Positions 50,288 through 52,156 of a stretch of 64,000 nucleotides of DNA are shown piece after piece. The position numbers were made by a program, and so were the translations under genes. This DNA comes from Laspinema olomoucense D3b. GTDB lineage: Bacteria > Cyanobacteriota > Cyanobacteriia > Cyanobacteriales > Laspinemataceae. The stretch is taken from the NCBI RefSeq assembly GCF_025370785.1, contig NZ_JAMXFA010000029.1, positions 1-64,000 of the forward strand. Direction: 5' to 3'. The notes below the pieces were generated by a model. The model had not been told where the DNA came from. It searched no databases and worked only from the letters and a program-made list of their open reading frames with translations. Numbering within the stretch: position 1 is the stretch's first letter; each line of letters starts with the position of its first letter.

Positions 50288-50320
50288 ACACCTCAACTAT
50301 AGATGCACCCTGATACAGAC

Positions 50321-50357
50321 GCCTCTGGGCACACCCTGCCCGAGGCTTTTTATTTTC
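50321..50357 (+). terminator. Intrinsic terminator of metF
   Basis: GCCTC(T)GGGC and GCCCGAGGC arms enclose a short ACACCCT loop, followed by TTTTTATTTT. Confidence 0.88.
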
Positions 50358-50750: not shown

Positions 50751-50811
50751 GCACAAAGGGACTTAACCCGGATGAGAGTGAGGGGCAAACCGGGCATCTT
50801 TTAGGGAATCC

Positions 50812-50885
50812 AAAAACAAAACACCCCCCTAGGGCTTGGGGGGTGATGCAACACTCAGGGTGTCGAACAAATTCAGGGTGATCGT
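50812..50885 (-). ncRNA. Candidate small RNA, array copy 1
   Basis: Read on the minus strand: a -10-like CATAAT (plus-strand ATTATG, 50892-50897), a predicted start near 50885, two CACCCTGA motifs, a small ACAC/GTGT hairpin, and a perfect 8-bp stem (50822-50829 with 50838-50845). A U-rich tail TTTTGTTTTT follows, ending at 50812. Predicted length is about 74 nt. Confidence 0.55.
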
Positions 50886-51087
50886 GTTTTCATTATGATT
50901 GCAGGAGTCAGGAAAAAGCATCAGCTAAATGGCTGAACTTTGCCTTGCTTGATTTAGATCCAAATTAAAGACTGTGGCAGCAGAGTCAGAAGATATCCTG
51001 AATCAACAGGATGGGGTGATGCATCCGCACAAATCAACTTAAGCCGGATGACACTCAGGGGCAAACCGGGCATCTTTTAGGGAATCC

Positions 51088-51161
51088 AAAAACAAAACAC
51101 CCCCCTAGGGCTTGGGGGGTGATGCAACACTCAGGGTGTCGAACAAATTCAGGGTGATCGT
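51088..51161 (-). ncRNA. Candidate small RNA, array copy 2
   Basis: Identical in its core to copy 1, displaced by 276 bp: -10-like box at 51168-51173, the same hairpin and U-rich tail. About 74 nt. Confidence 0.55.
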
Positions 51162-51364
51162 GTTTTCATTATGATTGCAGGAGTCAGGAAAAAGCATCAG
51201 CTAAATGGCTGAACTTTGCATTGCTTAATTTAGATCCAAATTAAAGACTATGGCAGCAGAGTCAGAAGATATCCTGAATCAACAGGATGGGGTGATGCAT
51301 CCGCACAAAGGGACTTAACCCGAATGAAACTGGGGGTTAAACCTGGGAGATCTTCATGTAGTCT

Positions 51365-51438
51365 AAAAATAAAAAACCCCCCTAGGGCTTGGGAGGTGAT
51401 GCAACACTCAGGGTGTCGAACAAATTCAGGGTGATCGT
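51365..51438 (-). ncRNA. Candidate small RNA, array copy 3
   Basis: The core is nearly unchanged: -10-like ATTATG at 51445-51450 and CACCCTGA motifs. The terminator stem CCCCCC/GGGAGG has one mismatch and the U-tract is TTTTTTATTTTT. The flanking sequence upstream of the -10 and downstream of the terminator has diverged from copies 1 and 2, whereas the transcribed part has not. Confidence 0.5.
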
Positions 51439-51636
51439 GTTTTTATTATGGTTTGAAGAGCCACGAAAAAACATCCGCCAAATGGCTTAACTTGATCTAA
51501 GCCAAATTACTGACGGATGGGCTGGGAAATGGCAATGAGGGCGATCGCCACTGAGGGACCGATATCTTGCCCGGGTCGGATACTGTTGCGGAGTCTCCCG
51601 GTCTTTGCTGCTGTCACCATATCTGACAATAACGAT

Positions 51637-51709: not shown

Positions 51710-52156
51710 TTAGACCCGACTCAGAGGTAAGCGGATCTTATGCTTGCGGAGAATGCGGATGAGTTGAGTGCCACTGAGCTGAATTCCCGTTACCTGGGCT
51801 AAATGTTCGGCTAATCGTTGACTTGTCCAGACTTCCAGGGGATACCCAAATTGGCTGGGGTTTTTTTTGACAACTTCTAAGAGCAACTGAATATAAGCTT
51901 GATCAGCTTTGCGATAGTTCCCCTGTTCCCGGCGATCGCGCAGACTATCAAGATTGTCTGGATCCCCATGCACGCACCAATAAGCAACGGTTCGGTAAGA
52001 ACAGCCTAAAAACTCGGCAATTTCTTCGTAAGTTTTACCATCATTTTGCAATAACAAAATCAGGGCGTGTTCCCGAAACCGAGAGCAATCACTCTGGCGG
52101 ATGGCATTTTGCAAGCTCTTTTTTTGGGTGGGGGTGAGAAAATTTTTGGCGGGCAT
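51710..52156 (-). CDS. Solitary HTH protein resembling the N-terminal part of IS630-type transposases
   Basis: A 148-residue basic protein with two helix-turn-helix units: ALILLLQNDGKTYEEIAEFLGCSYRTVAYW, then a winged-helix part around EVWTSQRLAEHLAQVTGIQLSGTQLIRILRKHKI. This is the DNA-binding half of IS630/Tc1-like transposases. No DDE catalytic domain or terminal inverted repeats are found next to it. It is therefore either a remnant or a domesticated stand-alone regulator, which is a common form in cyanobacteria. Confidence 0.75.
   Translation of the reverse strand: MPAKNFLTPTQKKSLQNAIRQSDCSRFREHALILLLQNDGKTYEEIAEFLGCSYRTVAYWCVHGDPDNLDSLRDRREQGNYRKADQAYIQLLLEVVKKNPSQFGYPLEVWTSQRLAEHLAQVTGIQLSGTQLIRILRKHKIRLPLSRV

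Follow-up and report, generated by a model that had tools for sequence, protein, structure and literature searches.

The window, that is, the whole stretch of 64,000 nucleotides analysed here, carries three direct copies of a small-RNA-like unit on the minus strand, each with a predicted transcript of about 74 nt. Every copy contains a CATAAT -10 element, two CACCCTGA boxes whose starts lie 18 nt apart, a G+C-rich hairpin and a T-rich tail, all of them on the minus strand, as the original prediction had described. The three direct copies also stand, but not the exact 276-bp period ascribed to them, as the 141-nt cores are spaced by 276 and then 277 bp. Copies 1 and 2 are 96% identical across 276 bp, and copy 3 matches both at 87% over the 141-nt core and also at 72% over 83 nt on the downstream side of the transcript. 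Only these three matches to the array unit are found in the whole 7-Mb host genome, all at the array (50751-51500). The features are as follows, where R1 denotes a covariance model built from 16 aligned units, copies 2 and 3 among them, out of 19 distinct units with the double-box pattern (two from locus L005 and one from L006 were omitted).

50812..50885, minus strand: small-RNA unit, copy 1 (predicted transcript, its 5' end placed from the -10); R1 score of 110.8 bits at 50806-50890
51088..51161, minus strand: small-RNA unit, copy 2 (predicted); R1 model, 110.8 bits, in the model's own alignment
51365..51438, minus strand: small-RNA unit, copy 3 (predicted, HTH-proximal); R1 model, 108.6 bits, in the model's own alignment
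50873..50880 (copy 1), 51149-51156 (copy 2), 51426-51433 (copy 3), minus strand: box 1, CACCCTGA, read from the sequence
50855..50862 (copy 1), 51131-51138 (copy 2), 51408-51415 (copy 3), minus strand: box 2, CACCCTGA, partly in a predicted hairpin loop
50822..50845 (copy 1), 51098-51121 (copy 2), 51376-51397 (copy 3), minus strand: intrinsic-terminator-like stem-loop, from a terminator scan
50892..50897 (copy 1), 51168-51173 (copy 2), 51445-51450 (copy 3), minus strand: -10 element CATAAT, read from the sequence
50919..50934 (copy 1), 51195-51210 (copy 2), 51472-51487 (copy 3), minus strand: operator-like 16-mer AGCCATTTRGCNGATG, 21 nt upstream of the -10
51710..52156, minus strand: HTH gene next to the array, upstream of it and in the same orientation; its 148-aa product corresponds to the N-terminal, DNA-binding part of an IS630-type transposase
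50298..50354, plus strand: separate NsiR1-type unit; 28.0 bits, E 0.005, below the cut-off of 39

Between 50200 and 51800, 15 terminator-like sites were detected, compared with 1.8 (sd 1.4) in shuffled sequences, a count that includes overlapping versions of one hairpin and the operator palindrome read as a hairpin; the first three sites in that list correspond to the unit hairpins. At the -10 boxes of the units, a simple scan for sigma-70 -35/-10 pairs gave no match. Predicted folding leaves box 1, in the 5' region, unpaired in copies 1 and 2 and partly paired in some other units. In three of the five units folded, the minimum-energy structure places box 2 at the loop of a short hairpin, which the other two lack. 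The fold z-scores of these five units are only -0.7 to -1.5.

Distribution and conservation of the units

A DNA search (BLAST) found array units in 9 of 59 genomes; these nine include the host and all belong to its family. No unit match was found in the other 50, so the distribution of the array is narrow. The R1 model gives strong matches in 9 of the 291 genomes of the order, again including the host, and one marginal match elsewhere (G289, E 0.064). Across 84,980 species genomes, the exact double-box pattern occurs at 12 loci, five of them in filamentous cyanobacteria of this group and seven in unrelated bacteria (four in a Microbacteriaceae bin and one each in Streptomyces, Rhodobacteraceae and a gammaproteobacterium); the records of Laspinema sp. 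D2d and Laspinema palackyanum D2a bear the same array. Two genomes of the host's own genus, G001 and G002, have no unit match, which may reflect their assembly: in G002, the MTHFR-type gene, which neighbours the array in the window, ends 434 bases from the end of a contig, and G001 has no match to this gene at E 1e-60.

Of the 21 units that the R1 model detects in four genera, 20 have both boxes exact, with variation in the linker and the terminator; the single exception has CACCCTAA in box 1 and is one of the four units of G008. This count is fairer than the invariance of the boxes in alignment A1, which exists by construction, since the units in it were chosen by the exact double-box pattern. 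The original prediction had also held that the flanks of copy 3 have diverged around a core that is kept, and this holds across six genomes of the genus. When the HTH-proximal units are compared with the others (15 units, picked by a 20-nt pattern inside the box region), the far upstream flank has a mean identity of 0.28 and the stretch immediately before the operator one of 0.40. The 16-mer reaches 0.89, the 21-nt spacer 0.74, the -10 1.00, the leader 0.88, the box region 0.99 and the terminator 0.93, and the downstream side stands at 0.74. Choosing units by exact pattern missed none of the 15 genus units found by BLAST and R1, and in G008 it missed one of four. Flanks of about 28% identity beside a box region of 99% and a -10 of 100% argue for selection on the transcript, in agreement with the predicted multicopy small-RNA-like unit under selection, which is kept outside the host genome as well. 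Moreover, the upstream flanks of HTH-proximal units from different species are 0.82 identical to each other and, thus, the types of unit seem to be older than the species, with the transcript remaining the same. Gene conversion between copies could also help to keep the cores similar. Of the two signs of constraint considered at the outset, conservation of the core beyond the host genome is found, but covariation among the aligned units is no higher than in shuffles and, therefore, the conservation is of sequence.

Promoter architecture and the linked HTH gene

In all three units of the window, the palindromic 16-mer AGCCATTTRGCNGATG stands exactly 21 nt before the -10. This architecture was first noticed at two other places in the host genome and then searched for. 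In its exact form, it occurs at 30 sites in 11 of the 14 genomes of the family, 19 of them array units and 11 other loci, two of which had shaped the search pattern; in the 45 genomes outside the family, there is one exact site. With at most one mismatch, 26 of the 59 genomes have a match, and the reversed pattern yields nine sites over all 59; outside the family, 17 such sites compare with 8 for the reversed pattern and, therefore, nothing is claimed there.

Within the genus, the same operator architecture recurs in two orthologous groups. The first, in five genomes (L150:1257, L166, L169, L170, L185), comprises a small-RNA candidate of about 65 nt with a conserved terminator-like hairpin, and the second, in seven genomes at no more than one mismatch (L149:2021, L164, L167, L186-L189), a longer leader and an 84-aa frame, which is broken in G003. 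A different RNA occurs in G013, which represents another genus of this family, as three tandem small-RNA-like units of 162 bp (L192, G013:C62:105300-107800). Their operator is similar to the AGCCATTTRGCNGATG architecture, not exact, and they adjoin a phycobilisome linker gene.

The HTH gene lies 117-228 bp upstream of the operator, on the same strand, in 9/9 array genomes. Its 148-aa product has homeodomain-like and winged HTH domain matches and no DDE domain, and aligns with positions 2-112 of the 299 of an IS630 transposase model at 98.3 bits (cut-off 100), while G004 has a 370-aa relative that includes a DDE domain and is a complete IS630 transposase. The gene is under purifying selection, with a dN/dS of 0.04-0.11 in five within-genus pairs; two between-genus pairs were saturated or undefined and were left out. 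In six further genomes (L119, L121, L124, L125, L127, L128), homologues of the HTH gene are followed by neither a CACCCTGA box nor an operator core in the next 1100 nt, so the HTH protein may have other duties, and the shared order of gene and array may be plain inheritance.

The MTHFR-type gene was also considered as a partner of the array and was dropped, being more than 3 Mb from the unit in G009. In G004 and G003 (L060, L063), the MTHFR-type gene and the array are separated by genes encoding an ArsR-like regulator, ArsD and an ArsA-type ATPase (domains were tested for L063); these genes are absent from that spot in the host window.

NsiR1 and the interpretation of the array

NsiR1 is a small RNA of Nostoc sp. 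PCC 7120 and a heterocyst-specific regulator, reportedly first presented by Ionescu in 2010; its expression is HetR-dependent and tied to nitrogen stress. Laspinema, a filamentous genus, is not known to form heterocysts. A term search of the main text of the Laspinema paper does not find the word 'heterocyst' (PMC9500459). The original prediction made the right comparison in naming NsiR1, but overlooked that CACCCTGA is the core of the NsiR1 model (RF02399). The sequence CACCCUGA is the core both of Rfam NsiR1 and of the array boxes and is present twice per unit, and the Rfam consensus contains GCACCCUGAU, aligned with box 2 of copies 1 and 2. As in NsiR1, the units have this core within a short RNA with a putative terminator and, judging from sequence, form tandem copies each with its own promoter; GAU precedes box 1, where NsiR1 has GAUG.

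The Rfam search anticipated in the original prediction does return NsiR1, but at 16.9 bits for copies 1 and 2, below the gathering cut-off of 39, with copy 3 not listed. At an E-value limit of 10, the NsiR1 model also leaves the units of eight relatives' loci unmatched. No Rfam family reaches its gathering cut-off within the 64-kb window, CRISPR-DR63, DdR13 and lysM-Actino matches were rejected as below their cut-offs, and no LhrC, presumably part of the model set, is among the Rfam matches up to E 5. Moreover, the DIF1 element (TCCGGA) is found at -35 in none of the three window units, and the array does not adjoin hetF. In copies 1 and 2, TCCTGA, which differs from DIF1 by one letter, stands 10 nt from the -10 and is too close to serve as a -35 element, and a unit in G010 has the exact TCCGGA, likewise too near the -10; one mismatch close to -35 is permitted by the DIF1 definition as given in excerpts of PMC6133370.

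The host genome has a HetR gene and, elsewhere, six NsiR1 genes over the cut-off, plus weaker ones; the six carry GATGCACCCTG[AG]T. In five of the NsiR1 copies listed, TCCGGA occurs upstream in exact form; another four have in its place a GGGGTnnnACCCC palindrome, which we take to resemble a HetR site, and the three array units lack both. The palindrome-bearing copies (two in L143, L054 and L145) have it shortly upstream of the -10. An NsiR1 array of two genes above the cut-off, with a weaker one between them, lies on contig C45 upstream of a gene for a HetF-like protein, whose sole match in NCBIfam is to HetF and runs full length at 770.6 bits (cut-off 1200). An NsiR1 array upstream of hetF is described for Nostoc in excerpts of PMC9045159. 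The separate NsiR1-type unit of the window immediately follows the MTHFR-type gene, in an orientation convergent with that of the array, and its TCCGGA falls inside the end of that gene. G009 is a second genome with NsiR1 units in this position, five of them directly after the MTHFR-type gene, each with TCCGGA upstream (L146, G009:C1, about 4618900-4619510).

The array is NsiR1-like in form and box, yet it has a low score, no DIF1 and another context and, therefore, is not filed as a member of the family. Since related genera conserve both the motifs and a common switch-like promoter element, the array looks like a real, undescribed relative or mimic of NsiR1. We consider it probable that the units encode NsiR1-like sibling small RNAs with a doubled seed, under another activator, and that the boxes of these RNAs would block the translation of mRNAs by pairing. 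Each unit would be independently transcribed and self-terminated as a small RNA of about 74 nt, and would offer two identical CACCCUGA seeds to mRNAs with UCAGGGUG near the start codon, where translation would be blocked. Having multiple gene copies, each RNA with two seeds, could raise the dose and the number of pairing sites, by analogy with NsiR1 and LhrC. The promoters, with a -10 and no recognisable -35, would depend on an activator at the palindromic 16-mer, centred near -43, as suggested by its fixed 21-nt spacing and conservation, and would differ in this from the -35 DIF1 promoter of NsiR1.

Regarding targets, pairing of the boxes with G-rich ribosome-binding sites, as first proposed, is something we infer. 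The pattern TCAGGGTG followed by ATG has 78 sites in the host genome and 104 in G004, compared with 26 and 29 for the reversed pattern, which is a poor control because its composition differs. In 20 regions of each genome, one of them shortened by a contig end, one start per genome of a frame of at least 100 aa and outside a longer frame has the seed, and it belongs to the same pentapeptide-repeat gene in both, with CUCAGGGUG just before the start. This gene is a weak target candidate, as its duplex is not significant (17/300 shuffles bind as well) and is not centred on the seed.

Alternatively, the units could be diverged true NsiR1 genes that moved from hetF, doubled their box and kept the regulon and targets of NsiR1. 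This origin would agree with the common box, tandem layout and size, with the TCCGGA-bearing NsiR1-type unit about 0.5 kb away and with the TCCTGA of copies 1 and 2 and the TCCGGA of G010, all too near the -10, but seems rather unlikely in view of the 16.9 bits, the unmatched units of the relatives and window promoters that have another conserved operator in place of TCCGGA. An improbable alternative is a protein sponge, in which the CACCCUGA boxes would titrate an RNA-binding protein and the copy number would set the capacity; identical repeated boxes in several copies, kept as the linker changes, would suit this role, but each RNA has only two boxes and the demonstrated mode of NsiR1, according to excerpts of PMC9045159, is base-pairing. 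That there is no RNA gene, just a DNA repeat or mobile-element remnant tied to the IS630-derived gene, is highly improbable: the tandem repeat and the link to an IS630-type DNA-binding part in every array genome are in its favour, but the limits of conservation are the promoter and the terminator, not the repeat ends, the genome has no matches beyond the array and the HTH gene is under purifying selection.

The host keeps a HetR gene and an NsiR1 array beside a HetF-like gene together with a conserved twin-box array with its own promoter class, which represents a natural test of the role of the CACCCUGA seed outside heterocyst development; moreover, the operator is defined, so its regulator can be sought directly. 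A bolder and unlikely extension is a family-specific small-RNA regulon, partly in tandem arrays, with one activator-type promoter whose regulator would be the product of the adjacent HTH gene, a domesticated IS630 DNA-binding protein. In that case, part of a transposon would have turned into the switch of an NsiR1-like small-RNA network.

Comparison with known systems

In the titles and abstract openings listed from the open-licence literature on NsiR1 (cyanobacteria, non-heterocystous, Arthrospira) or Laspinema, the array is not described. The closest known system is NsiR1, with which the units share tandem copies with their own promoters, the CACCCUGA core and a 3' terminator. However, NsiR1 is about 60 nt long in Nostoc and has one box, whereas the array units are about 74 nt by prediction and have two, score below the Rfam cut-off, have no -35 DIF1, lie away from hetF, use a different operator and are found in one family only. 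In Nostoc, NsiR1 acts by base-pairing at the translation-initiation region, according to excerpts of PMC9045159. The NsiR1-like RNA162 of Limnospira indica PCC 8005 likewise comes from a cyanobacterium that forms no heterocysts, but it is 57 nt long and is said to resemble NsiR1, and the excerpts of its description mention no twin box or array (PMC8400943). LhrC1-5 of Listeria, as described in excerpts of PMC6794450, comprise five small-RNA copies with three C-rich UCCC seeds each, whose pairing represses targets; both organism and motif are unrelated, and the likeness is an analogy of mechanism only.
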